Source: Burkholderia lata
Lineage (GTDB): Bacteria; Pseudomonadota; Gammaproteobacteria; Burkholderiales; Burkholderiaceae
Length of the DNA stretch: 64,000 bases
Assembly: GCF_000012945.1 (NCBI RefSeq)
Contig: NC_007511.1
Span: 1,736,001-1,800,000 of the forward strand
Direction of reading: 5' to 3'
The notes beneath the pieces were generated by a model that was not told where the DNA came from, made no database searches, and saw only the letters and a program-made list of their open reading frames with translations. Shown here piece by piece: positions 14,684 through 50,809 of this stretch (position 1 is the stretch's first letter; every line of letters begins with the position of its first letter). The translations under genes were made by a program, and so were the position numbers.

Positions 14684-16375
14684 ATGCGACTGATCGACCA
14701 GTTTCATCGGCTTGGCGAGTTTCTCGACGAGCAGGGCGGCCAGCCCGGGTTGCCGGCGCTTGCGCGGGCATTGAACTGCACCGAGCGCAACGTGCGGAGC
14801 CTGCTGCGCAAGATGGAGGCGCAAGGGTGGTTGCGGTGGGAGGCGGCGCGTGGCCGCGGCCACTTCTCGAAGCTGACGATGCTGGTTGCCCCGCAGCATG
14901 CGGTGCTCGATCGCCTGTCCTGCCTGCTGGCGGACGGTGAACTGGAGCAGGCGTTCGCGAGCCTCGGCGATGAGCAGCGCCAGCAATTGTTGAAGCGGCT
15001 TCCGGATTTCCTCGGAATCCATCCGGCCGGCTCTCACGGCCATCGCTTGCGCATTCCCCTCTATCGGGCGGTGGACGAACTCGATCCCTATCGGGTGATC
15101 AGCCGGCTGGAGGCCCATCTGGTGCGGCAGATATTTTCACGACTGACCGAATTCGACAGGCACACGCAGCGCGTCAGGCCGGCGCTGGCGCATCACTGGG
15201 AGCCGGAAGAGGCAGGGCGGGTCTGGCACTTCTGGCTCAGGCCGAACGTCCGTTTCCACGATGGCAGGCTTCTGGAGCCGGAAGATGTGCGGTACACCCT
15301 GCTGCGCATGCGCGACGAGCCGAGCCATTTCCAGCGCCTGTACCGGCATCTGCTCGACGTGGAAATCGGCGAAGGGCGGCGGATCGTATGTCGTCTCGGC
15401 GACGTCGATCATCTCTGGCCGCAGCGCGTCGCGGCGGCCAACGCGTCGATCGTGCCACGCCGCCGGAACGCCGACTTTGCGCGCATGCCGGTCGGCACGG
15501 GGCCGTTCAGGCTGACGCGCCACAGCGACTACCGGATCACGTTGTCGGCATTCGGCGATCACTATCGCGAGCGTGCGTTGCTCGACGAGCTGGATCTCTG
15601 GTTCCTGCCATCGGCCGAGCAGCCGGACGGATTCGATCTCCGATTCGGGTACTCCGCTTCTCATGCGCCGGAGGAGAAGGGCATCGTGCGCGTGCAGGCG
15701 GGCTGTACGTACCTGGTCTGCAACGCCACGCGCGAAGCGTTCCGCGAGCGTGCCGACCGGCTGGCGCTGGCGGATTGGCTCGCGCCAGCCCGCTTGTTCG
15801 GTCACGACGATCCCGCGAGGCGGCCGGCGGCCGGGCTGCTGCCGGCGTGGCGGCATCGCGTCGCGACACCAGCCGCCGAACCCTTCGTGCCGCAATACAC
15901 CGAGCTCACGCTGGTCACGGGGCAGACCGACGATGAACGGGGCCTGGCCCGTGCAATCGAGGCCAGATTGCGCGACGCGAATATCCGGCTGAGCGTGTTG
16001 GCGCTGCCTTATGCCGAGCTGATCCGGCGCGACTGGCGGGATTCGGCCGACCTGATGCTGGGCAGCGAGATCCTGCACGACGACGAGGATTTCGGCTGCT
16101 TCGAATGGTTCGGGGCCGACAGCATGTTCCGGCAATGGATGTCGGAACATGCCGCGCTCGAACTGGACCGCCGGCTGCATGCGGTCCAGGCGCAAGCCGA
16201 TCCGCGCGCGCGGATGGCGGACTATGAGGTCATCGGCAAGGAACTGGTCGATGCGGCGTGGTTGATCCCGATCTCGCACGAGCACCAGCATGTCGAGCTG
16301 GCATCGCATGTTGCCGGTGTCGACGAGGCCGCGCCGCTGGGGTTCGTGTCGTTCGCCGAGCTGTGGGTGCGTTGA
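14684..16375 (+). CDS. SgrR-family transcriptional regulator
   Basis: A 563-aa protein, close to the 551 aa of E. coli SgrR. The start at 14684 gives the standard N-terminus: an SgrR-type winged helix (MRLIDQFHRL, then ALNCTERNVRSLLRKMEAQGWLRW at about residues 25-50), followed by a solute-binding-protein (SBP_bac_5) domain with its PNVRFHDGR motif near residue 185. In E. coli SgrR senses sugar-phosphate stress; here no sgrS RNA or sugar transporter adjoins it. The divergent NADP-dependent oxidoreductase is the likeliest target, suggesting a different inducer. Confidence 0.88.
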   Translation: MRLIDQFHRLGEFLDEQGGQPGLPALARALNCTERNVRSLLRKMEAQGWLRWEAARGRGHFSKLTMLVAPQHAVLDRLSCLLADGELEQAFASLGDEQRQQLLKRLPDFLGIHPAGSHGHRLRIPLYRAVDELDPYRVISRLEAHLVRQIFSRLTEFDRHTQRVRPALAHHWEPEEAGRVWHFWLRPNVRFHDGRLLEPEDVRYTLLRMRDEPSHFQRLYRHLLDVEIGEGRRIVCRLGDVDHLWPQRVAAANASIVPRRRNADFARMPVGTGPFRLTRHSDYRITLSAFGDHYRERALLDELDLWFLPSAEQPDGFDLRFGYSASHAPEEKGIVRVQAGCTYLVCNATREAFRERADRLALADWLAPARLFGHDDPARRPAAGLLPAWRHRVATPAAEPFVPQYTELTLVTGQTDDERGLARAIEARLRDANIRLSVLALPYAELIRRDWRDSADLMLGSEILHDDEDFGCFEWFGADSMFRQWMSEHAALELDRRLHAVQAQADPRARMADYEVIGKELVDAAWLIPISHEHQHVELASHVAGVDEAAPLGFVSFAELWVR

Positions 16376-16502
16376 TTCGGGCTCCAGGGGGCGGCAGCGC
16401 GTGCCGTCACGTCGCCGGGCTACGCGTTTCAGCTCCCATGCAGCCGCGTCCCGGCGCTGATGGCGTAGCGCCGCGCGAACGGGGTTGTACTTCCACCGGT
16501 CA

Positions 16503-17498
16503 TCATTGCGATTCCGCGGCAGGCCGAAACCGATCACGATACGCACCCGGGCTCAGCCCGACCTTCTCCTTGAACAGCCGGCAGAACGAGCTCGTATCGC
16601 TATACCCCACCCGGGCCGTGATCCGCTCGAGGCTGAGATCGCCGGCCTCCAGCAAACCGCGCGCGGCTTCGATGCGCAGGCTCTGCAAATATCGCAATGG
16701 CGGCTGATTCAGCGTGGCCTGGAATCGGCGGATGATCGTGCGCTCGCTCACGCCGAGGTCATGCGCCATCTCCGACATCTTCACGTCCTTCGTCATGTGC
16801 TGTTGCAGCCAATGCTGCGCGCGGTGAACCAGCGAATCGGTGTGCGTCTTGTCCGTCAGCAGCGGGAGATACGGCAATTGCTTCGTCTGGCTGACGTCGA
16901 TCAGCATCGTTTTGGCGCACTGCGCAGCGATGACCGCCCCGGCGAAACGCTCGATGACATGAATCGTCTGCAACAGGTAGGACGCTGACGCGCCCGCACA
17001 GATCAGGCGATCCGCTTCGGTGACGACGGGTTCCAGCTGAAGGTCGACCCGGGGAAACCGGCTGCGAAACTGGTCCGCCAGCCACCACGTGGTCGTCGCG
17101 GGCCGCCCGTCCAGGAGGCCGGTGTTGGCCAGTACGAAAGTGCCGGTGCAATTTGCCGCCAGGTAGGCCCCGGCGTTCCATTGCGAAACCAGCCAGTCGC
17201 ATGCGGCCGACTGTCGTGCCAGCAACTGGTCGAAGGCCTTGCCGCTCGCATAGTGCGCACTGGGAATGAACACCAGGTCGAACTGCTCGCGCGGCCGGAT
17301 CGGCTCCGTGTTCAGCTGTAGCCCGTTGCTCGCCATGACGGGCGCCCCGGTCGGGGAGACGAACCGCCATTCGAATTGCGCTTGTCCATCGCCTCTCTGG
17401 CGCCGCACATGCGCGTTTGCAATCTGAAGGATGTCGGCGAACCCGCCCAGGCTGGAGGCGTAGCAATCGTCATACGCAAGGATGGCGGCGCGGGGCAT
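16503..17498 (-). CDS. GlxA-family AraC-type transcriptional regulator
   Basis: A 331-aa protein with two domains: an N-terminal DJ-1/PfpI-like (class I amidotransferase fold) sensor domain at about 1-190 and a C-terminal AraC double HTH at about 225-325 (MAHDLGVSERTIIRRFQ, then ITARVGYSDTSSFCRLFKEK). In the usual nucleophile-elbow position it reads LAANCTGTFVLANTG, so a Cys is kept. It is divergent from the nitronate monooxygenase gene (336-bp gap), which it may control. Confidence 0.9.
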   Translation of the reverse strand: MPRAAILAYDDCYASSLGGFADILQIANAHVRRQRGDGQAQFEWRFVSPTGAPVMASNGLQLNTEPIRPREQFDLVFIPSAHYASGKAFDQLLARQSAACDWLVSQWNAGAYLAANCTGTFVLANTGLLDGRPATTTWWLADQFRSRFPRVDLQLEPVVTEADRLICAGASASYLLQTIHVIERFAGAVIAAQCAKTMLIDVSQTKQLPYLPLLTDKTHTDSLVHRAQHWLQQHMTKDVKMSEMAHDLGVSERTIIRRFQATLNQPPLRYLQSLRIEAARGLLEAGDLSLERITARVGYSDTSSFCRLFKEKVGLSPGAYRDRFRPAAESQ

Positions 17499-17833
17499 GG
17501 CGTGGCGGATATCGCATTCAATGTGTCAGTTTAGCCAATGTACGGCAATTCGAACTGCGAGGAAACTGTCGGTATCCACCTGGCACCGGCGCGCCGGGCG
17601 GCGACTCGATCGTCAAGGCGGACGAGCAGCGCCGGGCGGCATCGCGTGCCGTCCGGGCTGCGCGAAGGCAAAGGCGGCCGGCGCGCGGGTATCTCCGGCG
17701 CTTCCGTTGCCGGGTTGCGTGGATTTCCATCGGCTTCGCGCCGGTGATTCAGCCGTGCCGTGGCGCGCGTCGTGGTCGCAACGCGTTCCCGGCATGCAAA
17801 GGCGCTTTCGTCTCAACCTGAACCGAAAACATC
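17499..17833. other. Divergent promoter region, glxA-type regulator / nitronate monooxygenase
   Basis: The 335 bases between two divergent starts hold no supported gene. The two promoters should lie here. I saw no strong inverted repeat. Confidence 0.4.
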
Positions 17834-18808: not shown

Positions 18809-19408
18809 TCCGATTGGCGGCACGAGATGCCGTGATGCCGCCGGCCTACGCTGGCGAATCTTCGCGAGCGTGATGTGATGCCGGCGGTCAGCGCATGCTG
18901 ACGGCAGTCGGCAAGTACGAACCGGGCGGCCGCGGCGATGGCCGCAAGCACCCGGTCGATGTTCGCAGTGCCTAGTCTGTTGCGTCGCCAGTTTCAGTTG
19001 CCAGGTTGCGCGATCAGGCTGGAGACCCATTCCACCACCGTCCGGATCGCCTCCGGACGGTCGCGTGCTCACGTGTTCAGCGAATTCCCCTCGTCGGATC
19101 GGGCACGTCGGGTTGCCCGATTCCGCTTTCTACTTTCCATATAGCCACGTTCGTCTGCCCCTCGTCCGGCGTGGCCGGGCATCATCCTCGAGCCCGGCCG
19201 ACGCGGCAGTGGCATCACACGCGCACCGTGCGGCCCACTGCGGTTTCCATTAGGCCCGACCCATCGCGAACCAGCGCCTGCTCCCGCGACCCACCCGCGA
19301 GATGACAAAAACCGGCATCGCCGAATCGTGACTTCGCGCTCGACGATATAATTCGCGCTCCGAGGGCATTCGAGCCCGACCGCGATGACAAGACAAGAAG
19401 AAGCAGAC
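18809..19408. other. 600-base intergenic region with hairpin and a possible LysR gene remnant
   Basis: No intact gene is seen. An 8-bp perfect stem lies at 19038-19045/19053-19060, without a T-run. On the minus strand, just before about 18998, a short frame reads like the last 20 or so residues of a LysR-type regulator (RPEAIRTVVEWVSSLIAQ), with nothing LysR-like upstream of it, so it may be the stub of a deleted gene. The promoter of the MoxR-led block should lie in 19200-19400. Confidence 0.35.
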
Positions 19409-20515
19409 ATGGCTCAGTCTCAACCGCATGCATTGCAGCGTCCGCCCGCTGAAGTCCTGTATGCCGATCAGCTCGCCGAGCTGAAGGCACAGGATGGCGC
19501 CCAACCCCGTCCGCCGGGCTGGCAATTGAGCCTGACGGCCGCCCGCGCATTCATTGCCGGCGATCGTGCGCTCGGCATCGCGCCGAAGATCGTCGCGCCG
19601 ATCGCGAGCATCGAGCGCATGCTCGTCACGCTTGCCACCGGCCGCGGGCTGATGCTGGTCGGCGAGCCGGGTACCGCGAAATCGATGTTGTCCGAGCTGC
19701 TGGCGGCCGCGATCAGCGGCACGTCGACGCTGACGATCCAGGGCGGCGCGTCGATCACCGAAGACCAGATCAAGTACGGCTGGAACTACGCGTTGCTGAT
19801 CAACGAAGGGCCGAGCCCGCGTGCGCTCGTGCCCGCGCCGCTGTACCAGGGCATGCACGACGGCCGGATCGTGCGCTTCGAGGAAATCACGCGTGCGCCG
19901 CTGGAAGTGCAGGACTGCCTGCTCGGCATGCTGTCGGACCGCGTGATGGCGGTGCCGGAACTGCACGGCGAACACGGGATGCTGTACGCGCGCGAAGGCT
20001 TCAACATCATCGCGACCGCGAACACGCGCGACCGTGGCGTGAACGAGATGAGCGCGGCGCTGAAGCGGCGCTTCGATTTCGAAACCGTGTTTCCGATTCT
20101 CGACTTCGACAGCGAACTCGCGCTCGTGCGCGAAGCCAGCGCGCGTCTCCTGGCCGGCAGCGGCATTCCGGCGGCCGTGCCGCAGCCGGTGCTGGAACTG
20201 CTGGTCACCACGTTCCGCGATCTGCGCGGCGGGGCCGGCGACGCGTCGGGCAGCGACGGCGCGATGGACCGTCTGACGGCGGTGATGTCGACGGCCGAAG
20301 CGGTGAACGTCGCGCATGCGGTCGGGGTGCGCGCATGGTTTCTCGAGCAGCGCGAAGGGTCGCCGCAGGATCTCGTCGACTGCATCGCCGGCACCGTCGT
20401 CAAGGACAACGCCGACGATCGCGCGAAGCTGCGCCGCTACTTCGAACAGAAGGCCGCACGGCGCGAAGGGGCGCACTGGCGCGCGTACTATGCGGCGCGC
20501 CACCGTTTGCCGTGA
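19409..20515 (+). CDS. MoxR-family AAA+ ATPase (YehL type)
   Basis: A 368-aa AAA+ ATPase, first gene of a colinear five-to-six-gene block. Walker A is GEPGTAKS (85-92), Walker B lies in RFEEITRAPLEVQDCLLG (about 155), and sensor 1 is in NIIATANTRDRGVNEMS, followed by the arginine-finger region LKRRFDFETVF. MoxR ATPases act as chaperone-like remodellers together with VWA-domain partners, and such a partner is encoded three genes on. The ATG at 19409 is preferred over 19385 because AGAAG precedes it. Corresponds in family and setting to E. coli yehL. Confidence 0.88.
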   Translation: MAQSQPHALQRPPAEVLYADQLAELKAQDGAQPRPPGWQLSLTAARAFIAGDRALGIAPKIVAPIASIERMLVTLATGRGLMLVGEPGTAKSMLSELLAAAISGTSTLTIQGGASITEDQIKYGWNYALLINEGPSPRALVPAPLYQGMHDGRIVRFEEITRAPLEVQDCLLGMLSDRVMAVPELHGEHGMLYAREGFNIIATANTRDRGVNEMSAALKRRFDFETVFPILDFDSELALVREASARLLAGSGIPAAVPQPVLELLVTTFRDLRGGAGDASGSDGAMDRLTAVMSTAEAVNVAHAVGVRAWFLEQREGSPQDLVDCIAGTVVKDNADDRAKLRRYFEQKAARREGAHWRAYYAARHRLP

Positions 20516-20659
20516 CGCACAGCATGAATGCGACTGTTCACGGCGATATGCCGCGGCCGGGACGGGTTGCGCCTGACGCGCACTGCGCGCACGGCGACAC
20601 GGGCCGGCCGGGCGCAATCGGCGCCGCCGCATGCATCGACGTCGACTGACGGGCGCCGC

Positions 20660-23152
20660 ATGCAGACCGACACGTCCAACACTCCTCACATCGTCGGCAT
20701 CCGGCATCACAGCCCCGCCTGCGCGCGGCTGGTGGCCGAGCGCATCCGCGCGCGGCGGCCGCGCTACGTGTTGATCGAAGGGCCGGCCGATTTCAACGAC
20801 CGGCTCGACGAACTGTATCGTCCGCACCGCCTGCCGATCGCGATCTACAGCTATCTGTCCGGCGATGCCGCGCATTACGGCTCGTGGACCCCGTTCGCCG
20901 AGCATTCGCCGGAATGGCAGGCTCTGCAGGCGGGGCGCGAAGTCGGCGCGATGGTTCGCTTCATCGACTTGCCCGCATGGCACGCGGCATTCTCGCGGCT
21001 GGAGAACCGCTATGCCGATGTCGCGGACGCCGAACACGAGGCACGCGCCGACGCCTACGAGCGCGCGCTGGCGGACACGCTTGCCGTGCAGGGCCGCGAT
21101 GCGCTGTGGGATCACCTGTTCGAGGACGTCGGCGATACGCCCGACGCACTGGACGAACTCGCGGAACGCCTGTCGACCTATTTCTCGCATCTGCGCGACG
21201 ACGATCCGGGCTCGCTCGGCAACCAGGCGCGCGAACGGATGATGGCGCGCTGGATCGCGTGGGCGGTCGCCGAAGCGGGCGGGCAGGCGGACGACGTGCT
21301 GGTCGTCTGCGGCGGCTATCACGCGCCCGCGCTGGCGCGACTCTGGCGCACGCTGCCGGCCGCGTTGCCCGATACGCCCGAACCCGGCTCGATCGACGGC
21401 GGTGCCGGTGCCGGCGCCGCGCTCGACGAACAGGCGAACGACCCCGGCGTTCCCGAGACGGATGCGAATGCCGCCGACGAGGCCGCGCACAGCATCCGCT
21501 ACGGTTCCTATCTCGTGCCTTACACGTTCAAGCGCCTCGACGCGTTCGCGGGCTACGCGTCGGGCATGCCTTCGCCGGCCTATTACCAGTGGGTCTGGGA
21601 ACACGGTGCCGAAGGGGCCGCGCGTCGCGTGCTCGAGCACGTGATGCAGCGGCTGCGCGCACGCAAGCTTCCCGTCTCGACAGCAGACCTGATCGCCGTG
21701 CACGTGCGGGCCGAAGGGCTGGCCCGCCTGCGTGGCCACGTGCGGCCGCTGCGTTGCGACTGGCTCGACGCGCTGGCCGGCGCGCTGGTGAAGGACGCGC
21801 TCGACGCGCCGCTGCCGTGGACCTATCGCGGGCCGCTGCGGGCCGGCACCGACCCGGTGCTGGTCGAGGCGATGGATGCGCTGGCCGGCGACGTTGCCGG
21901 TGAACTCGCGCCCGGCACGCCGCAACCGCCGCTCGTCGCCGCGGTGCGCGACGAACTGGCCGCGTTGGGCATCGTGCTGCGCGGCACGCTGACGCTCGAC
22001 CTGCTGACCGACGAAGGGCGTGCGCGCAGCCGCGTGCTGCACCGGCTGGCGCTGCTGCGCGTGCCCGGCATCGTGCGCCGCCAGGGCGCGCAACTGGCGA
22101 TGTCGGGTGAGCGCGACGAGGTCTGGCAGCTCGGCGAGCCGCTCGAGCAGCAGGCGGCGCTGATCGAAGCCGGTGCGTGGGGCGCGACGCTGGCCGACGC
22201 GGCACGCGCGCGGCTCGAGGATGAATTGCGCCAGGCCGGCGGTCGCATCGCGCCGCTCGCGGATGGTCTGAACCGTGCCGCGTGGGCCGGACTGGCGGCA
22301 CTGAGCGATCAGTTGCTGGATACGCTGCGTGATGCGGTCGCGCGCGAACAGCGTTTCGAGTCGCTCGCACCGGCGCTCGGCAACCTGTATACGCTGCTGC
22401 GTCATGGCCATCTGCTCGGCATGAACGATGCGCCGGTGTTGCGGATCGTCGTCGAGGCCGGTTTCGATCGCGCGCTATGGTTGCTGGAGCCGGCCGCCGC
22501 GCTGGCGCCGGCCGATCTCGATGCGCATGTGCAGGGGCACGTCGCGCTGCGCCGGATCGTGGCCGATGTGCTGGCCGGCGCCGATGGTGATGGTCAAGCG
22601 CCGCTCACGATCGAACCGTTGCGCGCGCTGGCCGTCTGGCGGCGCAAGGCGGCCGATACGGCGGCGGCGCCCGCGAGTCGCGGCGCGGCGCTTGGCGCGC
22701 TGCTCGGCCTCGCCGCACACGCCAGCACCGACGACGGTCAACCCGTCGCGGGTATCGACGACGCGATGGCGCTGCTGCAGGCGATGCCGGCCGCCGCGCT
22801 CGGCGATGCGCTCGGCGGCTTGCTTGCGCTGGCGCGCGAGACACTGGCGAGTGCCCCCGCGTTTGTTGCCGGCATGGATGCGACCGTGCGCGCGCTCGAC
22901 GATGCCGATTTCGTGCTCGCGCTACCGGGGCTGCGCGGCGCGTTCGCATGGTTGCCGCCTCAGGAGCGCGGGCGGCTCGCCGACCAGGTGCTCGCGCTGC
23001 ACCAGGCCACGCACCTGTCGCGACGTGTGCTGACGGAACGGCACGCGGAAGACGCATCGCCCGAGGCGGTCGCGCACGCCACACGCATCGAGGCGCAGGT
23101 GCTGGGCCGCCTGCGGCGCTGGGGGCTCACGCCCGATCCGGAGGCGTCGTGA
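20660..23152 (+). CDS. DUF5682 family protein (YehM type)
   Basis: An 830-aa cytosolic protein of unknown activity. It begins with the family hallmark IVGIRHHSPACARLV, followed by YVLIEGPADFNDRLDEL, and has a central VVCGGYHAPALARLW segment; these conserved His and Asp residues suggest an enzyme, but no reaction is known to me. The start at 20660 is the first that gives family-like sequence; 144 bases separate it from the MoxR gene. In E. coli the corresponding gene (yehM) also lies beside the MoxR ATPase and the VWA protein. Confidence 0.82.
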   Translation: MQTDTSNTPHIVGIRHHSPACARLVAERIRARRPRYVLIEGPADFNDRLDELYRPHRLPIAIYSYLSGDAAHYGSWTPFAEHSPEWQALQAGREVGAMVRFIDLPAWHAAFSRLENRYADVADAEHEARADAYERALADTLAVQGRDALWDHLFEDVGDTPDALDELAERLSTYFSHLRDDDPGSLGNQARERMMARWIAWAVAEAGGQADDVLVVCGGYHAPALARLWRTLPAALPDTPEPGSIDGGAGAGAALDEQANDPGVPETDANAADEAAHSIRYGSYLVPYTFKRLDAFAGYASGMPSPAYYQWVWEHGAEGAARRVLEHVMQRLRARKLPVSTADLIAVHVRAEGLARLRGHVRPLRCDWLDALAGALVKDALDAPLPWTYRGPLRAGTDPVLVEAMDALAGDVAGELAPGTPQPPLVAAVRDELAALGIVLRGTLTLDLLTDEGRARSRVLHRLALLRVPGIVRRQGAQLAMSGERDEVWQLGEPLEQQAALIEAGAWGATLADAARARLEDELRQAGGRIAPLADGLNRAAWAGLAALSDQLLDTLRDAVAREQRFESLAPALGNLYTLLRHGHLLGMNDAPVLRIVVEAGFDRALWLLEPAAALAPADLDAHVQGHVALRRIVADVLAGADGDGQAPLTIEPLRALAVWRRKAADTAAAPASRGAALGALLGLAAHASTDDGQPVAGIDDAMALLQAMPAAALGDALGGLLALARETLASAPAFVAGMDATVRALDDADFVLALPGLRGAFAWLPPQERGRLADQVLALHQATHLSRRVLTERHAEDASPEAVAHATRIEAQVLGRLRRWGLTPDPEAS

Positions 23153-23252
23153 TCCATCAATCGACGGGCCGCCATGCGCCCGGCTTCTTCTTACTTCACC
23201 ACGATGTCGCGCCGTCACGGCACGGAGCGGCGTGGTTTCCGCGAGACCTGCG

Positions 23253-24377
23253 ATGCCGCTGAACATTCCCGGTCCGCTCGAACGCTGGCGCCTGCTGCTC
23301 GGCGAACCGGCCGAAGCCGCGTGCGGCACGCCGGGCGCCGACGCGCAGGCTGCCGACGCGGCGCTCGAATGGCTGTACGGTCGCGACGACGATCGCGCGA
23401 AGCGTGGCGAGCGCGGTGCCGGCCTGGGGCCGTCCGCGCTGAGCACGCCGGACTGGATCAACACGATCCACACGCTGTTTCCGAAAGAAGTGATCGACCG
23501 GCTCGAACGCGATGCGGTCGAGCGCTTCGGCATCGACGAAGTCGTCACGAACCTCGAGGTGCTGGAGCGGATCGAGCCATCCGAATCACTGCTGCGCGCC
23601 GTCCTGCACACGAAGCACCTGATGAATCCCGAGGTGCTCGCGGCCGCGCGGCGGCTGGTTGCCGAGGTGGTCCGGCGCATCATGGAGCGGCTGGCGACCG
23701 AGGTGCGACAGGCCTTCAGCGGCACGCGCGACCGGCGGCGGCGCTCGCGGATGAAGATCGCGCGCAACTTCGACTACACACGCACGCTGGCCGCGAACCT
23801 GCGCCACTGGCATCCCGAGCGGCGCAAGCTGTATCTCGACACGCCGGTCTTCAACAGTCGCACGCGTCGCCAGGCCGAGCCGTGGGACATCGTGCTGCTC
23901 GTCGACCAGAGCGGATCGATGGTCAACTCGGTGATCCACAGCGCGGTGATGGCCGCGTGCCTGTGGCAATTGCCGGGCATGCGCACGCGGCTCGTGGCCT
24001 TCGATACGTCGGTGGTCGACCTGACCGCCGACGTATCCGACCCGGTCGAGCTGCTGATGAAGGTTCAGCTCGGCGGCGGCACGGACATTGCGAAAGCCGT
24101 CGCGTATGCGCAATCCTGCGTTGCGAATCCCGCGCGCACGGTCGTCGTGCTCGTCAGCGATTTCTATGAAGGCGGCAGCGGCTACGAACTCGTGCGTCGC
24201 GTGAAGGCACTGGCCGAGAGCGGCGCGCGCGTGCTCGGTTTGGCTGCGCTCGATTCGGCGGCCGAGCCCGCGTACGACCGCGAGATGGCGGCGCGGCTCG
24301 TGAACGCCGGCGCGCAAATCGGCGCGATGACGCCCGGGCAACTGGCCGCGTGGCTCGCCGAGAAGGTGCAGGGATGA
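23253..24377 (+). CDS. VWA domain-containing protein (YehP type)
   Basis: A 374-aa protein with a C-terminal von Willebrand A domain. The metal-ion-dependent adhesion site is seen as DQSGSM (about 217-222), with a later Thr in GGGTDIAKAV and Asp in VLVSDFYEGG. The N-terminal 200 residues are helical and contain FPKEVIDRLERDAVERF. VWA proteins of this kind are the partners of MoxR ATPases and are thought to present substrates. The stop overlaps the next start (ATGA). Confidence 0.88.
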   Translation: MPLNIPGPLERWRLLLGEPAEAACGTPGADAQAADAALEWLYGRDDDRAKRGERGAGLGPSALSTPDWINTIHTLFPKEVIDRLERDAVERFGIDEVVTNLEVLERIEPSESLLRAVLHTKHLMNPEVLAAARRLVAEVVRRIMERLATEVRQAFSGTRDRRRRSRMKIARNFDYTRTLAANLRHWHPERRKLYLDTPVFNSRTRRQAEPWDIVLLVDQSGSMVNSVIHSAVMAACLWQLPGMRTRLVAFDTSVVDLTADVSDPVELLMKVQLGGGTDIAKAVAYAQSCVANPARTVVVLVSDFYEGGSGYELVRRVKALAESGARVLGLAALDSAAEPAYDREMAARLVNAGAQIGAMTPGQLAAWLAEKVQG

Positions 24378-26608
24378 GCGCGCCGATGCGTGACGATCTG
24401 CTCGAACTGACGCCGGAGGCGCTGACCGCGCTCGCCAATGCCGGGTTCGTCAAGCGGGCACAGAAGGATGTCGCGGCCGGCGCGTTGCCGGCACTGGCTG
24501 TCGACGGCGACGGTACGGTGCATGCGTCGTTCGACGACGGCGTGCGGACCAGCCTGCCGCCGGGCCGAACGTTGCGCGATGCCGCATGCAGTTGCACGGC
24601 AAGCGGCATGTGCCGGCATCGCGTGATGCTGGTGCTGGCCTATCAGGCGAACATGCAGGCGAACGAAGCGGTCGATGCGACCGATTCGGCCGATGTGCGT
24701 GCGGGCGGAGACGGCAAGACGGAGCCGGTCGATACGCGCGACGAAGCGGCACGCAATCCGAATGACGTGGCGCGCGACGGCCCGGACTTTGCACCGCCGG
24801 ATGACGACACGAGCGGCACGTCGTCCGCGGATCGTGCATGGAGCCCCGCCGATTTCGACGATGCCGCGCTGGCGGCGAGTTTCGCGCCGTCGGTGCTCGA
24901 ACAGGCCGTGCGCATGGCGGCGGCGCGGCCCGTCGTGGCCGTGCAGCCGTGGGCCGGCGCGCAAGGGTCCCCGGTTGCACGACTGCCGATGTGTACGGTG
25001 CGGTTCTTCTCGCGACGCTCGCTTGCGCATGCGCGCTGCGATTGCCGGCAGGGCAGCGGCTGCGCGCACGTGGTGGTCGCCGTCTGGGCGTTTCGCCAGG
25101 CCGGCGCACCGGCCGACGGCGTATCGGAGGCGATCGTCGAGGTGCGTCCGCCGGCCGGCGACGAAGGCGAGAGCGACGACGACCGCTCGCCGTTGCGCGA
25201 CGATGCGGCGCACGCGTTGATCGCCGACCTCGACACGCTGGTGCACGCGCTGTGGCTGGACGGCTCGAGCCAGCCGCCGATCGCGCTCGCCGCACGCGTG
25301 GAGTCGCTGCGCGGCCGCCTGCGCGAGCGCGGCTGGCAGTGGGTCGACGACGCGCTCGACGAAGCCTGGCAGCTGGTGCACGCGCAGCATGCGCGCAGCA
25401 GCCGTTTCGAGCCGCTGCGGCTCGTGCGCGTGCTGGCCGAACTGTGGGCGCGCCTGCGCGCGGCGAGGTCCGCCGCGACGCAGCGCGACGGTGCCGCGGT
25501 GCCGGCCCGCCAGATGCTCGGCATCGGCGTGAAGGGCGAGGTCGAACTCGATCATCTGCGGCTGGTGTCGCTCGGCGTCGAGCTGTGGGCCGACGACGCG
25601 GAAGAGGGGGCGAGCGTGCTGTTCGCCGATCCCGACACGCAGACCGTGATGGTGCTGACGCGAAACTGGCCGCGTGCCGCCGACGTCGCGGCCGGCGGCC
25701 GGGCACCAGATCTGGCCGGCCGCCGCGTCGCGGGTTTTCCGTTGCGGCAGATCGCGGCCGGGCAGGTCGTCACGAAAACCGCGAAGCGTCGCGCGAACGG
25801 TGCGGTCGACATCGCGGCCGGCGTACGGCAGACGGGCGTGCTGCCGCTGTCACCGAAATCCTGGGACGATCTCGCTGCGCCGATCCGCCAGCCGGGCATC
25901 GCGGCGCTCGTCGCGCACCTGCGTGACGCGCTGCCCGATTTCGTGCGGCCGAGACAGGCGGCGAATGGCGCGGCGGCCGGCGCAGCCGGGTCGCTGCACG
26001 TCGTCGCGTTCGAGCCGATGGTCGTGCGCTCGGTCCATTGGGATGCGGCCGCGCAGGTGCTGCACGCGCGGCTCGCGCAGGGCGAAGCCGGTGCGGCCGA
26101 CGCGGGCGGCGAAGATGTGCTGCATCTCGCGCTGCCGCATCGCGCCGTGGCGCCTGGCGCAGTCGATGCGCTGGCGCGCGCGTTGTCCGGCGAATGGGGC
26201 GCGTTGCGCGCACTGGCGGGCACCGTGCGCCTGCACGCGGGCACGGCCGTGATGCGGCCGCTGGCCGTGCTGACCGCGCAGCGCGCCGTCGTACTGCAGA
26301 CCGAGGCGGCGGCGCCGCAACCGCTGCCGCTGGCCGGCGGGCGCGAGCCGTCGCCCGCGCTGGTCGCGCTCGCGGAGGACACGCTGGCGCTGCTGGCCGA
26401 GTGGCTGAGGCAGGGCATGCGCCACCAGGGCGGCGGTGCGGTCGAGCGCGCGCTGGCACAGGCTGCGCGGCTGGAGCGGGCCGGCCTCGCGCATGCGGGC
26501 CGGCTGCTGCGCGCGCTGGCTGACGGCCTGCGTGCCGCGCAACCGGCGTCGCTTCTGGCGCAACTGGGTTCGCTGACGTTGCTGCTGCTGGGCATCGTCG
26601 AGCAATGA
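24374..26608 (+). CDS. Double SWIM zinc-finger protein (YehQ type)
   Basis: A 744-aa protein with two SWIM-type (CxCx(n)CxH) motifs: CSCTASGMCRH near residue 72 and CDCRQGSGCAH near residue 222. SWIM fingers bind DNA or protein. Between and after them the protein is Ala/Arg-rich and helical with no further domain I can name. The start at 24374 overlaps the VWA stop (ATGA), so the pair is translationally coupled. The family and position correspond to E. coli yehQ. The fingers suggest the MoxR/VWA machine acts on a nucleic-acid-bound target; that is inference. Confidence 0.84.
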   Translation: MSAPMRDDLLELTPEALTALANAGFVKRAQKDVAAGALPALAVDGDGTVHASFDDGVRTSLPPGRTLRDAACSCTASGMCRHRVMLVLAYQANMQANEAVDATDSADVRAGGDGKTEPVDTRDEAARNPNDVARDGPDFAPPDDDTSGTSSADRAWSPADFDDAALAASFAPSVLEQAVRMAAARPVVAVQPWAGAQGSPVARLPMCTVRFFSRRSLAHARCDCRQGSGCAHVVVAVWAFRQAGAPADGVSEAIVEVRPPAGDEGESDDDRSPLRDDAAHALIADLDTLVHALWLDGSSQPPIALAARVESLRGRLRERGWQWVDDALDEAWQLVHAQHARSSRFEPLRLVRVLAELWARLRAARSAATQRDGAAVPARQMLGIGVKGEVELDHLRLVSLGVELWADDAEEGASVLFADPDTQTVMVLTRNWPRAADVAAGGRAPDLAGRRVAGFPLRQIAAGQVVTKTAKRRANGAVDIAAGVRQTGVLPLSPKSWDDLAAPIRQPGIAALVAHLRDALPDFVRPRQAANGAAAGAAGSLHVVAFEPMVVRSVHWDAAAQVLHARLAQGEAGAADAGGEDVLHLALPHRAVAPGAVDALARALSGEWGALRALAGTVRLHAGTAVMRPLAVLTAQRAVVLQTEAAAPQPLPLAGGREPSPALVALAEDTLALLAEWLRQGMRHQGGGAVERALAQAARLERAGLAHAGRLLRALADGLRAAQPASLLAQLGSLTLLLLGIVEQ

Positions 26609-26776
26609 CGGCATGACCGTCGACCGGGCGAGCAGGCAGCGCCCGACATCGCGAGTCGTCGTGCAAATTGCACGGATCGCGGGATGAATGAACGAGAGGG
26701 CGTCGTGGCTGCGTGGCGGCCACGACATGCAGGCGCGGCATCGTGCTGCGTCGTCGATCCGAGTGAGAGGGAACGG

Positions 26777-29700
26777 ATGCGTCGTTTTGAACTGATCGAA
26801 GGCAATTCCAGCAAGTTCTGGGAAGTGGAGCAGGACGGCTCCGGGCTCAATATCCGCTGGGGCCGCATCGGCACCGCGGGCCAGAGCCAGACGAAGGCGT
26901 TCGCGGACGACGCGAAGGCGCGCGCCGCGCTCGACAAGCTCGTCAAGGAAAAGACCGGCAAGGGCTATGCGGAAGTCGCGGTGGCGGCCGGCACCAGCAT
27001 CGGCGCGACCGCCGCGAAGCCGCCGGCCGCCGTGCCGTCGGCCACTTCGACCGCCGTGCCGGAGGGGGCCGCAAAGGCAGAGGCAGAAACGGCCGCGAGC
27101 GCGCAACCCGCAGCGGCGAATGTCGCGCATGGTGCGCCGCCCGCGCCTCCGGGCCAGCCGGCCGCGTTGGCGCCGCTTTCGACGGCCGCATCAACCACGG
27201 CCCCCGCACCCGTGCCGCCCGTCGCCACCGAAAGTATCGACGCCCAGTGCGAGCGCGTCTTCGAAATCATGCGCGCGCAGATCGCGAACGGCGAGATGAA
27301 GCCTGGCGAGAAACTGACGGTCGCTGCGATCAAGCGCCGCTATAACGTCGGCGACCAGGGCGCCGCGATGGCGTTCGACCTGCTGAAGTCGCGCCGTCTG
27401 CTGTACGGCTGGGGAACGTCGGCCGCCGTGCACGACCACGCGCAGGCGGCAGCCGTGGCGCTGGGCGAGTCGGTGGCGACCGAGGCCGCCGCACTGGCGC
27501 CCGCCGCACCCGCGGTCGCCGACACGGGCGCACCGCCGTGGCTGGCGCACGGCGACCCCGTGCGCCTGTCGCCGCAGATGCAGCGCGAAGCCTATGCGTC
27601 GCGCCGCTTTCCCGTCGAGGTGACGGTGCTCGACGTGCGCGCCGCGTGGCTGAAGATCGAAGGCAAGGACGGTTACTCGATCGACATCGGCGCGACCGAT
27701 GCGGCGCTGCGCCCGGCCGTCCAGCGGATGCTCGACCGGCTGGCCGCGCGCACGCCGATTGCCGGTCCGGTGGCGGATGCGGAAGCCGATGCCGCGCTGT
27801 TCGCGCTGGCGATGACCGTCGGCGACTATCACGGCGAAACCACGATCAGCCGCCCGGTCGTCGATTACCTGGTTGCGCAATACGGCTTGACGGGCACGAT
27901 CGACGTGCTGCTCGATGCGTTGAAAATCCAGGTGCATGCCGACTACGACCGTCAGGCGCAGCGCCGCGTCCACCGCTTCACGACGAATGTCGAAGGCCCG
28001 GTGCGCGGTAGCTGGCGCGGGCCGATCGTCGGCAGCGAGGCGGCGCTGCGCGAGCATCTCGCCGCCGCGAGCGAGGCGGACTGGCAGGCCTGCGTCGACA
28101 GGAGCGAGGCCGCGTTGCCGATGCTGCACCCGACCCGCCAGCCGATTCCCGCACTGTTGTTGCCCGATGCGCCGCACGTGTCGAATGCCCTGGTGCGCCG
28201 GCTGGGTGCCGAGCGCGACGTGCCCGAGACGCTGCACTGGATGTTGCTGACCGCGACCGATCCCGATGCGATCGCGATCGCCGCGAAAATCCGGCCGGAC
28301 AGCTATGGCCATTCGTTCTGGGGGCTGTCGCGGATGGTCGCGACTGCGCTGCGCGAGCGCGGCGCGGCGGCGTTCGACGTGCTCGAACGCGGCGCCGCCG
28401 ACGATGCGGCGGGCGACGCGCTCGCCGCGATCGGCACGCCCGACGCGGTGGCGGCACTGGCGAAGGTCGCGAGCGGTTCGAAGGGCGCACTCGCGCGCCT
28501 GTCGCTGTCGCTCGATCGCTGGCCGGTGGCGGGCATGGTCGCGCTGTCGCGGCTCGTGGCCGCGGGCGGCAAGGATGCCGGCCTGCTGACGCCGAGCCTG
28601 ACACGCCTGCTGCGCGCGCATACGGCGCACGTCGACGGGCTGCGGCCGTGGCTCGACGCACCGGCACAGGCGGTGATCGACAAACTGCTCGCGCTGCTGG
28701 CCGGCCCGGCCGACGTCGCATCGACGGACGAATTGCCGGGCGTGCTCGCCGCGCCGCCGTGGCTTGCCGCGCGGCAGAAGAAGGCCGCTGCACTGACGCT
28801 GGAGCCGCTCGAGCTGGCGGCGATCGAATGCTGGGACGAAGCGAAGCGCAACCACGCGAAAACGCCGGACCAGTGGGAGGCGAAGCGACTTGCCGAGGCG
28901 GCGAAGAACACGCTGACGCTGGCCGCGGGCCTGGGTTTCGACGCGAGCAAGAAGTACTACGGGCCGCTCGGCGAGGCTGCGGCAAAGGCGATCCGGCAAG
29001 GCGACGCGCCGGCGTTCGTCACCGCGTGGCGCGCGATGATCGACGAGCGCAAGCGCGAGCGGTACTTCTGGTACTCGCTGCGCGCCGAGTACCTGACGCT
29101 GCTGCCGGCCGCGGTGGCCGTCGACATCTGGAACGCGATCGCAGGCGACTACAGCACGGCCGGCGTCAACATGCTGATGGCGACTTTCGGCTTGCCCGCG
29201 TTGCCCGGCCTCATGGCAACCGTGCGCAGCAAGCCGACGGAGAATTTCAGTTACGCGCTGAACTACGGCGCCATCGAATGCGCGCCGATCGCGGCCCGCG
29301 CGTTCGCGAAGCTGAAGACGTTGCGCGACGACGGCCGTGCGTGGCTGCTGAAGTTTCCCGAGCATGCGGCCAGCGGCCTGATCGCGCCGTCGCTCGGCAA
29401 GCCGGGCGAAGCGCGCGACTGCGCCGGCACCGCGCTGCGTTTGCTGCAGGCGAACGGCCACGAGGCGCTGCTGATGGACGTCGCCTCGCGCTATGCCGAC
29501 GCCGCGGTGCCGCAGGCGGTGCGCGCGGTGCTCGACGAGAGCCCGCTCGACCGGTTCCCGACCAAGCGCAGCAAGCTGCCCGAATTCTGGCAGCCGCGCG
29601 GCTGGCGCCGGCCGGTGCTGAAGAACGGCAAGGCGCTGCCGGACGATGCGCTCGACCCTCTCGGCCAGATGCTGACGTTCCCGACCAGTGAAGGGATCTA

Positions 29701-31045
29701 CGGCGGCATCGACATCGTGAAGGACGCATGCACGGCGGAGTCGCTGGCCGACTTCTCGTGGGATTGCTTCAACGCATGGCTCGATGCCGGCGCGCCGGGC
29801 AAGGAAGGCTGGGCACTGAACGCGCTGGGCCTGTTCGGCAACGACGACACCGCACGCAAGCTGACGCCGCTGATTCGCACGTGGCCCGGCGAATCGGCGC
29901 ACGCACGCGCGGCGACCGGCCTCGACGTGCTGGCCTCGATCGGCAGCGACGTCGCGCTGATGCTGCTCAACGGCATCGCGCAGAAGGTCAAGTTCCGTGC
30001 GCTGCAGGACCGCGCGCGCGAGAAGATCGACGCGATCGCGGAAGCACGCGGGCTGTCGTCGGAGGAGCTGGAAGATCGTCTCGCGCCGGATCTCGGGCTC
30101 GACGCGCAGGGCACGATGCTGCTCGACTTCGGTCCGCGTGCGTTCCGGGTCGGCTTCGACGAGACGCTCAAGCCGTATGTGCGCGAGACCGGTGCCGACG
30201 GCGTGGCCGGCGCGCGGCTCGCGGATTTGCCGAAGCCGAAGAAGACCGACGATGCGGAGAAGGGCAAGGAAGCGGTCGAGCGCTTCAAGCTGCTGAAGAA
30301 GGATGCGCGCACCATCGCGAGCCAGCAGCTCGCGAGGCTCGAGGTGGCGATGTGCGGCCGCCGCCGCTGGACGCCGGAGGTGTTTCGCGCGTTTCTCGCC
30401 GAGCATCCGCTGGTGCGTCACCTGGTTCAGCGTCTCATCTGGGGCGTGTACGAAGTCGATGACGGCGGCAACTTCGGCGGCACGCTGAAGGCTTGCTTCC
30501 GCGTGGCGGAAGACGGCACCGCGGCCACGGCCGACGACGACGCGTTCACGTTGCCGGAAGGCGCGACGATCCGCATCGGCGTGCCGCATGCGCTGGAGAT
30601 CGCGCCGGCCGACGCCGCCGCGTTCGGGCAGGTGTTCGCCGACTACGAGCTGCTGCAGCCGTTCGCCCAGCTCGGGCGCGACGTGTACCGGCTGACCGAC
30701 GATGAGCGCAACGGGCGGCTGCTCGAACGCTGGAAGGGTGTCAAGGTACCGACCGGCCGCGTGCTCGGGCTCGTCAACAAGGGCTGGCGCCGTGGCCAGG
30801 TGGAGGATGCCGGCTGCATCTGGTATTTCACGAAGCCGCTCGGCGCGGGCAAGGTGATCGAACTGTCGCTCGATCCGGGGATCATCGTCGGGGCGGTCGA
30901 CATGTATCCGGATCAGGAGCTCGGTGCGTTGCAGGCCGGCTCGCCGTCGAACTGGGGCAGTATTCGCGAGGCGGATTCGCTGTCGACGCTCGACGAGATC
31001 TCGGCGAGCGAGTTGATCCGCGATCTGGAGGGGATGCGCGAGTAA
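26777..31045 (+). CDS. WGR and DUF4132 domain protein (YehI type) with embedded GntR-like winged helix
   Basis: A very large (1422 aa) protein. An N-terminal WGR domain is clear (FWEVEQDGSGLNIRWGRIGTAGQ at about residues 14-36; the WGR triplet is present). An Ala/Pro linker (about 75-150) follows, then about 70 residues that read like a GntR-type winged helix (GEMKPGEKLTVAAIKRRYNV). The long helical middle leads to a C-terminal DUF4132 domain (ARLEVAMCGRRRWTPEVF, then HPLVRHLVQRLIWGVYE near residue 1200). WGR domains sense DNA ends in PARPs. E. coli YehI has the same C-terminal family and was once called molR; a molybdate role is not supported here. A gap of 168 bases precedes it. Confidence 0.85.
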   Translation: MRRFELIEGNSSKFWEVEQDGSGLNIRWGRIGTAGQSQTKAFADDAKARAALDKLVKEKTGKGYAEVAVAAGTSIGATAAKPPAAVPSATSTAVPEGAAKAEAETAASAQPAAANVAHGAPPAPPGQPAALAPLSTAASTTAPAPVPPVATESIDAQCERVFEIMRAQIANGEMKPGEKLTVAAIKRRYNVGDQGAAMAFDLLKSRRLLYGWGTSAAVHDHAQAAAVALGESVATEAAALAPAAPAVADTGAPPWLAHGDPVRLSPQMQREAYASRRFPVEVTVLDVRAAWLKIEGKDGYSIDIGATDAALRPAVQRMLDRLAARTPIAGPVADAEADAALFALAMTVGDYHGETTISRPVVDYLVAQYGLTGTIDVLLDALKIQVHADYDRQAQRRVHRFTTNVEGPVRGSWRGPIVGSEAALREHLAAASEADWQACVDRSEAALPMLHPTRQPIPALLLPDAPHVSNALVRRLGAERDVPETLHWMLLTATDPDAIAIAAKIRPDSYGHSFWGLSRMVATALRERGAAAFDVLERGAADDAAGDALAAIGTPDAVAALAKVASGSKGALARLSLSLDRWPVAGMVALSRLVAAGGKDAGLLTPSLTRLLRAHTAHVDGLRPWLDAPAQAVIDKLLALLAGPADVASTDELPGVLAAPPWLAARQKKAAALTLEPLELAAIECWDEAKRNHAKTPDQWEAKRLAEAAKNTLTLAAGLGFDASKKYYGPLGEAAAKAIRQGDAPAFVTAWRAMIDERKRERYFWYSLRAEYLTLLPAAVAVDIWNAIAGDYSTAGVNMLMATFGLPALPGLMATVRSKPTENFSYALNYGAIECAPIAARAFAKLKTLRDDGRAWLLKFPEHAASGLIAPSLGKPGEARDCAGTALRLLQANGHEALLMDVASRYADAAVPQAVRAVLDESPLDRFPTKRSKLPEFWQPRGWRRPVLKNGKALPDDALDPLGQMLTFPTSEGIYGGIDIVKDACTAESLADFSWDCFNAWLDAGAPGKEGWALNALGLFGNDDTARKLTPLIRTWPGESAHARAATGLDVLASIGSDVALMLLNGIAQKVKFRALQDRAREKIDAIAEARGLSSEELEDRLAPDLGLDAQGTMLLDFGPRAFRVGFDETLKPYVRETGADGVAGARLADLPKPKKTDDAEKGKEAVERFKLLKKDARTIASQQLARLEVAMCGRRRWTPEVFRAFLAEHPLVRHLVQRLIWGVYEVDDGGNFGGTLKACFRVAEDGTAATADDDAFTLPEGATIRIGVPHALEIAPADAAAFGQVFADYELLQPFAQLGRDVYRLTDDERNGRLLERWKGVKVPTGRVLGLVNKGWRRGQVEDAGCIWYFTKPLGAGKVIELSLDPGIIVGAVDMYPDQELGALQAGSPSNWGSIREADSLSTLDEISASELIRDLEGMRE

Positions 31046-31134
31046 CACGCGCTTGCCGCCGAGGCGGGCGAGTGCTGCCCCGTCCGCTTCGACTACGCCG
31101 ATATCGCACGTTCTTCCTTGCACCGACACCCGCC

Positions 31135-32184
31135 ATGACGCCGCTGACACCCGAACTCCTTGCCGTCCTGCACCGGCCCGTCCTCGACGAAGCCGATCTC
31201 TTCACGATGGACGATTTCTTCGAACTGACCGAAATCGACGAATTGCGCGAGCAGGCGCAGGACCCTGCCTGCGCTGACGCCATCCTGCACGCGTGTGCGG
31301 CCGAGCTGCCGGCGCTGCACCCGAATCGCGCGGCGTTGCTGGCGCTGCTCGGTGGCGCGATCGTCGAGCGCGGGGCCGATCCGCGCATCCTGTTTCCGGC
31401 CGCGCAGGCGAGGCTTGGGGCGTGGTTGCCCGAACTCGCGCCGTTTTGCGCACGGGCGGTCGAGGAGGGCGACGATGAGGCCACCGACGACGAACGGCGC
31501 GACTGGCAAGCAGCTCAGCAGCAGCTCGATGCACTGGGCGCGCAGCAGCGTTGGGAGGTCGATGCGTTGCGGGACGCGGTCGATACGCTGGTGCTGCCGC
31601 TGATGGCGATGCTGATGCGCAGTCAGGACAATCACCGCGATCTCGTCGCCGATGCTGCCTTGCAGTCGTTGCTTGACCGGATGGCCGATAACGACAGTTT
31701 GCCGTTCGACCAGTTGTACTTTCTGTGCCTCGCGTCGGCGATGAGCAACGAACCGGAGTGCGTCGTCGTGCTGCCGGCTTCCGGCACCGGCTTCGTGGCC
31801 AGCGTGCATGCGGTCAACAATACGTTCCACGCGTTCACGCTGTTGCAGCGCCTGATCGGCGAGCACGCGCAGACGCTGCGCGTCGGCAAGCCGATTGCGC
31901 CGAGGAGCGGTGACGAAGATCAGGACACGTCGGAGTTTCACTGGCTGCAGGCGCATGCGTATGAGAACGGCGTGCTGGTCCACAACCTGGCGCTCGCTTG
32001 GGGGGAAGCGCCGCTGCGCAGCCACCGCAAGCACGGCCAATGCGTGCTGATCGCGCTGGACACGGAAGAGGGTATCAAGCGGAGCTGGAACGGCTTCAAT
32101 GGTGTCTGTCATCCGGCGCAGAACCCGTCCGTGACGCTGGTGCGATTCCTGACGCCGGATGAAGTGGCTGCCTATCTGGCCTGA
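31135..32184 (+). CDS. Hypothetical protein following the MoxR/VWA/SWIM/WGR block
   Basis: A 349-aa acidic cytosolic protein with no signal or membrane segment and no family that I recognise. The start at 31135 gives protein-like sequence at once (MTPLTPELLAVLHRPVLD). The C-terminal third is richest in aromatic and conserved-looking residues (GQCVLIALDTEEG, then RSWNGFNGVCHPAQNP). It lies 89 bases after the WGR/DUF4132 gene on the same strand and may be a further member of the system, absent from the E. coli version as I remember it. Confidence 0.7.
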   Translation: MTPLTPELLAVLHRPVLDEADLFTMDDFFELTEIDELREQAQDPACADAILHACAAELPALHPNRAALLALLGGAIVERGADPRILFPAAQARLGAWLPELAPFCARAVEEGDDEATDDERRDWQAAQQQLDALGAQQRWEVDALRDAVDTLVLPLMAMLMRSQDNHRDLVADAALQSLLDRMADNDSLPFDQLYFLCLASAMSNEPECVVVLPASGTGFVASVHAVNNTFHAFTLLQRLIGEHAQTLRVGKPIAPRSGDEDQDTSEFHWLQAHAYENGVLVHNLALAWGEAPLRSHRKHGQCVLIALDTEEGIKRSWNGFNGVCHPAQNPSVTLVRFLTPDEVAAYLA

Positions 32185-49802: not shown

Positions 49803-49825
49803 CGGGCGGGGCGGCATGCAACAAC

Positions 49826-50638: not shown

Positions 50639-50689
50639 GGTCGGCTCCCGTGCTTGCTCAACGAGCCATCCAGCATGCCAGCAGTCAAA

Positions 50690-50723
50690 AACACGACATC
50701 TGTAAATAGCCAGAACACGACAT
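50690..50723. repeat. IS end with duplicated AACACGACAT
   Basis: AACACGACAT occurs at 50690-50699 and 50714-50723, about 55-85 bases upstream of the transposase start. Repeated short blocks of this sort mark the transposase-binding end of an insertion sequence, so this is taken as the intact left end of the truncated ISNCY element. Confidence 0.5.
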
Positions 50724-50809
50724 TAGGATATGGCTGCTACAACACAAATTGTCGATAATTCACGTTATGTAAAATTATAAATACCCAAGTGAACCGACCT
50801 TCATGGGAG

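Follow-up and report, generated by a model that had tools for sequence, protein, structure and literature searches.

The 64,000-nucleotide stretch of Burkholderia lata DNA analysed here (contig NC_007511.1, positions 1,736,001 to 1,800,000 of the forward strand; hereafter the window) belongs to a genome of 8.68 Mb in three contigs, and its positions 19409-32184 are filled by six plus-strand open reading frames (ORFs; Table 1). In order, they encode a MoxR-type AAA+ ATPase, a DUF5682 protein, a VWA protein, a SWIM zinc-finger protein, a long protein joining a WGR domain to DUF4132, and a protein of an orphan family. An original prediction, made from the sequence alone, had treated all six genes as one system, had equated the first five with the E. 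coli yehL/M/P/Q/I set and had seen in them a machine acting on damaged or foreign nucleic acid. The first five genes do form a conserved unit, which may be an ATP-driven remodelling machine built around a predicted TraB/Tiki-type hydrolase domain in the DUF5682 protein, and the sixth gene is a neighbour.

The predicted AAA+, VWA, SWIM, WGR and DUF5682 assignments were upheld by Pfam profile search. The MoxR and VWA genes stand two apart in one operon. In gene 1 the AAA_3 and bpMoxR models matched below their cut-offs (bpMoxR at 16.4 bits, cut-off 27), and the protein is called MoxR because of its 76% match to YehL, which is annotated as MoxR family. The DUF5682 gene has an alternative in-frame start upstream, at 20528, and the SWIM gene, with its first GTG taken as the start, has 28 bases in common with the end of the VWA gene. 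The SWIM product carries two CxCx5CxH motifs, as had been predicted, one of them over the Pfam cut-off and the second read directly from the sequence. Gene 5 joins in a single protein the counterparts of YehI and of the YehF WGR domain; the GntR-type winged helix within it is a sub-threshold Pfam match (24.5 bits, cut-off 27). A search of the window proteins against NCBIfam gave matches that all lay far below the cut-offs. Long minus-strand ORFs overlie the block (for example 27191-31150, 1319 aa), as would be typical of GC-rich DNA.

Table 1. Features of the block and its surroundings in the window
Feature	Coordinates	Strand	Basis or remark
Unit found at different same-genus sites: promoter and five genes	19344..31044	+	blastn to G565, G608, G595
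Probable -10 box of the operon, TATAAT	19347..19352	+	Upstream-region alignment
Gene 1: MoxR-type AAA+ ATPase, YehL subfamily, 368 aa	19409..20515	+	Pfam AAA_5 3.4e-34; 76% to YehL
Gene 2: DUF5682 protein (YehM)	20657..23152	+	Pfam DUF5682 3.2e-101; 46% to YehM
Gene 3: VWA protein (YehP, CoxE-type)	23232..24377	+	Pfam VWA_CoxE 1.1e-65; 70% to YehP
Gene 4: SWIM zinc-finger protein (YehQ)	24350..26608	+	Pfam SWIM 1.5e-4, 21.6 bits (cut-off 19.6)
Gene 5: WGR, winged-helix-like stretch, long middle region, DUF4132; 1453 aa	26684..31045	+	Pfam WGR 2e-18, DUF4132 1.8e-50
Sixth gene, 351 aa, orphan family	31129..32184	+	GTG alternative start at 31072

In E. coli K-12 MG1655 the corresponding gene row reads yehF (WGR), yehH (a pseudogene), yehI (DUF4132), yehK, yehL, yehM, yehP and yehQ. 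Apart from the identities to YehL, YehM and YehP given in Table 1, the window SWIM protein is 35% identical to YehQ over 499 aa and 53% over 105 aa, and gene 5 has 33% identity with YehI along 1065 aa and, in the 68 aa of the WGR part, 51% with YehF, so that the predicted equivalence of the five families is borne out. The DUF5682 proteins of the two loci fall in one clade of eight rows with a Shimodaira-Hasegawa-like approximate likelihood-ratio (SH-aLRT) support of 100. The loci differ in that YehF and YehI are separate genes 5' of yehL, whereas in the window the two are fused and lie 3' of the SWIM gene. In E. coli K-12, YehL counts as the second MoxR ATPase, and the gene set and the YehL subfamily are already known in outline (PMC3893208). 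In the open-access literature searched, no described function was found for YehL, unlike RavA, and no paper naming DUF5682, in keeping with the predicted lack of an established function; none of the titles listed from that literature describes the five-gene system.

Conservation of the neighbourhood was surveyed with a DUF5682 alignment (A1) that was used to scan 84,980 species genomes and found at least 574 relatives. The best 80 loci, from about ten phyla by their record titles, were kept and examined with neighbourhood profiles built from the proteins of the window and of E. coli; as this set was chosen by similarity to the window protein, it leans to close kin. Seventeen loci were set aside for short flanks, and 63 were counted. 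All five families occur together in 53 of the 63 (MoxR in 61, VWA in 60, SWIM in 60, and DUF4132 on the same strand in 55). The predicted conservation of the genes as a group is thereby confirmed, and the block is one conserved multi-gene system, with an association far beyond chance. At least one family is absent from each of the remaining ten loci, among them L070 and L085, whose DUF5682 copies have no detected MoxR or SWIM alongside. Within the 53 complete loci DUF4132 lies 5' in 43, 3' in nine and on both sides in one; with a 3' DUF4132 in ten of 53, the gene order of the window is a minority arrangement. A WGR domain was detected on DUF4132 in 16 of the 63 loci. The WGR counts are lower bounds, since our WGR profile missed a flank protein at L086, and separate WGR genes such as yehF stand outside them. 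At this locus (16283-17770, Bradyrhizobium jicamae) a WGR-like protein adjoins the five-gene module; it is probably, by an assignment made by eye, the flank ORF that matches PADLOC WGR_XIII at 4e-116.

The limits of the unit are visible within the genus, where DUF5682 occurs in 15 of 65 genomes. By blastn, the modules of G565, G608 and G595 match the window from 19344-19345 and end at 31044, with 78-91% identity and no syntenic flank, and in G597, on a cut contig, the match begins at window position 19343. One extra non-syntenic match each was found in G565 and G608, that of G608 being to the window RHS gene described below. The TATAAT hexamer and the nearby TCCGAGGGC (19359-19367) are common to all ten aligned same-genus upstream regions, including that of a module remnant in G578, and little sequence upstream of TATAAT is common between different sites. 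Although a promoter scan found no consensus promoter at 19347-19352, TATAAT with TCCGAGGGC appears to mark the start of a unit common to several genomic sites and is probably its -10 box. These unit boundaries are offered as new.

The conserved unit is thus the five genes. The sixth gene occurs in seven of the 65 genus genomes, in two genomes out of 249 from the family (these two belonging to the same genus, with none found outside it) and, among 99 loci, only at the window and at one other locus of the genus. Searches with its product against Pfam, PADLOC, NCBIfam and PHROGs gave no match, and no sequence relative of it was found in the PDB. It might be regarded as an added effector or immunity component, as it lies 83 bases after the DUF4132 gene on the same strand and a copy stands downstream of the module 3' end in G000 (the window's own genome), G560, G596 (~0.8 kb away) and G603 (where the contig is cut), with a partial copy downstream in G032. 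Such a role is nevertheless very improbable: the module stands without a sixth gene in G141, G565, G608 and G595, G578 has kept the sixth gene and the downstream flank and lost the five genes but for a 251-base 5' piece of MoxR, and G600, a genome without DUF5682, holds the gene elsewhere and without the window flanks. Its predicted membership of the system is therefore contradicted by the genus-wide distribution and synteny, same-genus copies of the unit ending at 31044 without it. In the G578 remnant (L159, 9098-11067) the operon start and the MoxR 5' end are kept, and ~1.7 kb between are unexplained.

A second subtype of the system was found among 398 genomes of the phylum, 14 of which hold DUF5682. 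Subtype A, in nine genomes, has DUF5682 scores of 328-371 bits, and subtype B, in six, of 658-865 bits; G344 holds both. The gene order in subtype B is SWIM–DUF5691(HEAT)–MoxR–DUF5682–VWA. The SWIM protein precedes MoxR–DUF5682–VWA in the six fetched subtype-B loci and in a seventh from the genus, scoring above the Pfam cut-off in all five tested and retaining the zinc motif in seven of seven. Both tested proteins from between SWIM and MoxR proved to be DUF5691 with weak HEAT matches, and in a genome search DUF5691 adjoins MoxR in all six loci. Above its cut-off, DUF5691 is present in exactly the six subtype-B genomes among the 398 (and below it in two others), while DUF4132 is present in nine of nine subtype-A genomes, none of the five B-only genomes and two others (G156 and G348), that is, in two of 389 genomes outside subtype A. 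The corresponding Fisher values, 8.7e-17 for subtype A with DUF4132 and 1.9e-13 for subtype B with DUF5691, are overstated, the genomes being related. Subtype B is a single clade in the DUF5682 tree (SH-aLRT 100), in which the window sequence falls together with those of Variovorax, Stenotrophomonas, Lysobacter, Massilia and E. coli YehM. Homology between the SWIM proteins of A and B extends past the zinc motif (hhalign Prob 95.5, P 1.6e-8). The existence of a subtype in which DUF5691 replaces DUF4132 is offered as new. In the window's own genome a further, weaker DUF4132 copy lies at C1:510206-510682 (93 bits).

The N-terminal ~230 residues of DUF5682 are predicted to be a TraB/Tiki-type hydrolase domain, an assignment also offered as new. 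Two alignments were available beyond A1: A2, with the window and 57 of 77 usable loci (65 after 72% clustering, 8 dropped by hand), and A3, with 40 of 50 listed rows (the window and 49 clustered rows). Invariant in 58 DUF5682 rows are R16, H17, E41, SPE84-86, D104, R192, E193, M196, G219 and H222, and H18 is kept in at least 90%. The resulting motifs, [G/P]14xxH17, E41, R192E193xxM196 and G219G220xH222, resemble those of TraB, PrgY, TIKI and ChaN proteins, with [G/P]xxH, a second-strand Glu, R(E/N/D)xxM and GGxH/VGAxH following in the same order in both; DUF5682 differs from these proteins in having ~600 residues C-terminal to the domain and a conserved PFxxxSPE block. When 24,736 Pfam models were run against the 58 members, the families besides DUF5682 that matched more than one were ChaN (6), DUF5694 (4) and TraB (4), all weakly (best E 0.014, 6.5e-4 and 0.05, respectively). 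The ChaN family is described as Tiki superfamily, and DUF5694 we take to be a member of the Tiki clan.

Profile comparison points the same way. Residues 1-330 of DUF5682 aligned to TraB by hhalign with P 8.2e-4 against a 17-row set that included the wrong-strand rows L122 and L123, and with P 2.9e-3 against a 31-row set that contained these and the empty L169. Against 26 cleaned rows (with L122, L123 and L169 removed, and also L177 and L180, which have no N-terminal motif), the DUF5682 N-terminal region gave Prob 63.6 and P 6.7e-5 over 202 columns, the alignment spanning the entire TraB profile in register. The same 26 rows gave P 0.04-0.16 with six unrelated families and Ere, and none of 200 column-shuffled profiles (a lenient null) reached the observed score of 39.3, the maximum being 22.2. 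In a motif-profile test that excluded L122 and L123, ungapped DUF5682 residues 11-43 scored 11.7 and 8.8 on the TraB-proper sequences L132 and L176, at their N-terminal GTAH...(I/V)EL strands, where 1500 unrelated ORFs reached at most -3.9; residues 189-225 matched RDEYM...VVGAGH of L132 (p 0.0027).

Several results tell against a Tiki-type hydrolase. None of the other TraB rows beats the negatives on the motif profile (next best p 0.018), and when the TraB rows were searched with the DUF5682 profile by plain hmmsearch, nothing significant resulted (best E 0.23). Searched against PDB sequences, this profile found no Tiki-fold chain; its seven matches were mostly ATP-synthase b subunits (best E 0.031). 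The Gly of GxxH is Pro in much of the DUF5682 family. Tiki enzymes have a 2His/2Glu site (PMC6254334, of which a part was available), and the first Glu of the Ere-type form of that motif (ExH) is absent from DUF5682, which has Ile or Val there; in the TraB rows this position is mostly Thr or Ser. The erythromycin-esterase branch is unsupported as the nearest relative of DUF5682 (P 0.05), and Ere aligned with TraB no better (P 0.04). The Tiki fold is a tentative assignment drawn from sequence comparison, the profile similarity to TraB being moderate and short of conclusive. For gene 2 by itself no PDB sequence relative was found, and the DUF4132 profile had one PDB match (E 0.13).

The canonical Walker B motif has D-E. 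The window MoxR protein has a Walker A motif, GEPGTAKS, and an unusual E-E Walker B (VRFEEITR), whose E158 and E159 are each at least 95% conserved in 92 rows; its clade keeps the Walker A, sensor and arginine residues, to which we assign their usual roles. The E-E signature of this MoxR clade is offered as new. The metal-ion-dependent adhesion site (MIDAS) of the VWA protein is intact (D225xSxS, T284 and D310, at least 95% conserved in 93 rows), and C80, C82, C88 and H90 of the SWIM protein reach the same level in 84 rows, 33 of which have two SWIM motifs.

A MoxR-type AAA+ protein and a MIDAS-bearing VWA partner encoded in one operon recall NorQ/NorD, CoxD/CoxE and RavA/ViaA. The window differs from these pairs by its additional DUF5682, SWIM and DUF4132 (or DUF5691) proteins, by the E-E Walker B and by an operon without a known client enzyme. 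For NorQD it is reported that the AAA+ ring remodels a linker in its VWA partner and that force is passed on through this VWA member of the pair (PMC13036017). The logic of a MoxR protein, a vWA protein and a third protein is also that of the MoxR-vWA ternary conflict systems (PMC7159879); their third component is a VMAP, iSTAND, FtsH or beta-propeller protein, and here it is DUF5682. None of these four was found in a Pfam scan of the six window proteins, and the main text of that paper has no SWIM, WGR, DUF5682, DUF4132, YehL or YehM.

Taken together, these observations suggest, with a probability of roughly 0.4, that the block encodes a YehL-type remodelling machine with five components, driven by ATP and built around a Tiki/TraB-type hydrolase. 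The machine is suggested by the joint presence of the five families at 53 of 63 loci, the occurrence of the five-gene block as one unit at different sites, the homology of the SWIM proteins of both subtypes, the intact MIDAS and conserved E-E Walker B, the transmission of force through the VWA protein in NorQD, and the pairing of subtype A with DUF4132 (9/9) and of subtype B with DUF5691 (6/6). The hydrolase is suggested by the TraB profile and the ordered His/Glu/Arg/His motifs that DUF5682 shares. In such a machine the MoxR ring (gene 1) would dock on the VWA protein (gene 3), and ATP hydrolysis would change the conformation of either the DUF5682 protein (gene 2) or its substrate, which would switch on or feed a peptidase- or esterase-like hydrolysis. 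The SWIM protein and the large partner (DUF4132 in A, HEAT-repeat DUF5691 in B) could serve as exchangeable target receptors, and a WGR-bearing partner, as in the window, may tether the machine to DNA or RNA; the order of these events, the substrate and the contact with nucleic acid are what we infer. Against this proposal stand, besides the doubts about the Tiki fold, the E-E Walker B itself, which could mean altered ATP hydrolysis, the unsupported homology of DUF4132 to DUF5691 (hhalign P 0.018), and the fact that no report of an activity, a complex or a client was found for this system in the literature searched. With a hydrolase active site predicted for DUF5682, the unit delimited to five genes and a further subtype recognised, an anonymous locus becomes a machine that is testable in a laboratory strain.

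More tentatively, the idea could be extended to a widespread MoxR-VWA class with an ATPase gating a Tiki-type hydrolase and with exchangeable receptors that determine the target, either SWIM with DUF4132 (with or without WGR) or SWIM with DUF5691. If true, this would be a so far undescribed cytoplasmic, AAA+-controlled, peptidase-like system extending from E. coli to actinomycetes and clostridia, and a regulated hydrolase would join the MoxR–VWA family, which is best known for chaperone-like maturation.

Another explanation is that MoxR and VWA, like NorQD and CoxDE, insert a metal into, or otherwise activate, a cofactor-bearing client, DUF5682 being the client or a scaffold and not a hydrolase. 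The VWA protein belongs to a CoxE-type Pfam family, the MoxR-VWA pairs known so far act in metal or complex maturation (PMC3893208 and PMC13036017), and ChaN, a haem-binding protein of the Tiki superfamily, is among the weak Pfam matches of DUF5682. A maturation chaperone is rather unlikely all the same, as the conserved set has no cofactor enzyme, no Pfam family was matched by more than four of 107 flank ORFs, and DUF5682 carries the motifs of the TraB branch. These flanks comprised at most one ORF per side of each locus and were taken with an approximate ORF picker, spurious ORFs included.

The role in nucleic-acid surveillance that had been predicted, with WGR sensing nicked or foreign DNA or RNA, SWIM binding it and MoxR-VWA driving an anti-phage or DNA-repair response, draws on the WGR match and the winged-helix-like stretch of gene 5, on the 16 loci with WGR on DUF4132, and on a patchy occurrence in the genus (15/65) with copies at different sites. 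The 107 flank ORFs include two DNA-ligase C-terminal matches and one DNA-alkylation-repair match. PADLOC 2.0.0 returned no defence-system match for the block, and a single weak, partial WGR_XIII match (19.3 bits) in gene 5; type XIII (WGR_XIII / HEAT-ARM_XIII) is presumably a retron type. Some role with nucleic acid keeps a degree of plausibility, in that the window protein has a WGR domain and SWIM occurs in both subtypes. At the remaining 47 of the 63 loci, however, no WGR was detected on DUF4132 (eight of them have no same-strand DUF4132), and subtype B has HEAT-repeat DUF5691 in place of DUF4132, which leaves the proposed action on damaged or foreign nucleic acid weak. PADLOC found nothing for the other four genes, and its nine families matched in the flanks each occur in one of the 107 ORFs; a defence island is not supported by these counts, for which no formal enrichment test was made.

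The genomic setting argues in the same direction. The yehLMPQ genes are near-core in E. coli, where they are chromosomal and 5162 of 5426 genomes carry 80% or more of the block at a single site. DUF5682 was found on 35 of 72,556 plasmid records, some of which (several) are as large as a chromosome, and on one of 50,697 phage records, an unannotated 14-kb record matching 46% of the protein; one scan of IMG/VR viral contigs gave 44 pattern matches and no DUF5682 relative confirmed by tblastn. With near-core status in E. coli, rare carriage on plasmids and phages and no defence family recurring among the 107 flank ORFs, there is little support for a typical defence module, and surveillance of nucleic acid is improbable. 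A five-component remodelling machine would instead probably act in stress or quality control within the cell's own physiology, not as a classical anti-phage module. A phage-borne system was also considered and set aside, with no viral-contig relative confirmed and the one partial phage-record match. Genes 2-5 have strong matches in PHROGs (for example phrog_30700, 5.7e-159), and the families concerned may contain host sequence.

Elsewhere in the window, positions 49703-57542 form a stretch of lower GC content (0.55-0.63) that looks like a polymorphic toxin locus. Its minus strand encodes a large RHS-repeat protein (51577-56247), which a 432-aa ORF precedes (56244-57542) and a 256-aa ORF follows (50810-51580); a transposase-like ORF (49703-50638) is also present. 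These names were given by eye, on the basis of the translated sequences. Directly upstream of the module copy in G608 (L162, 15211-19409), 4.25 kb are 69% identical to the window RHS gene (52376-56585), which places an RHS locus near the module in both genomes.

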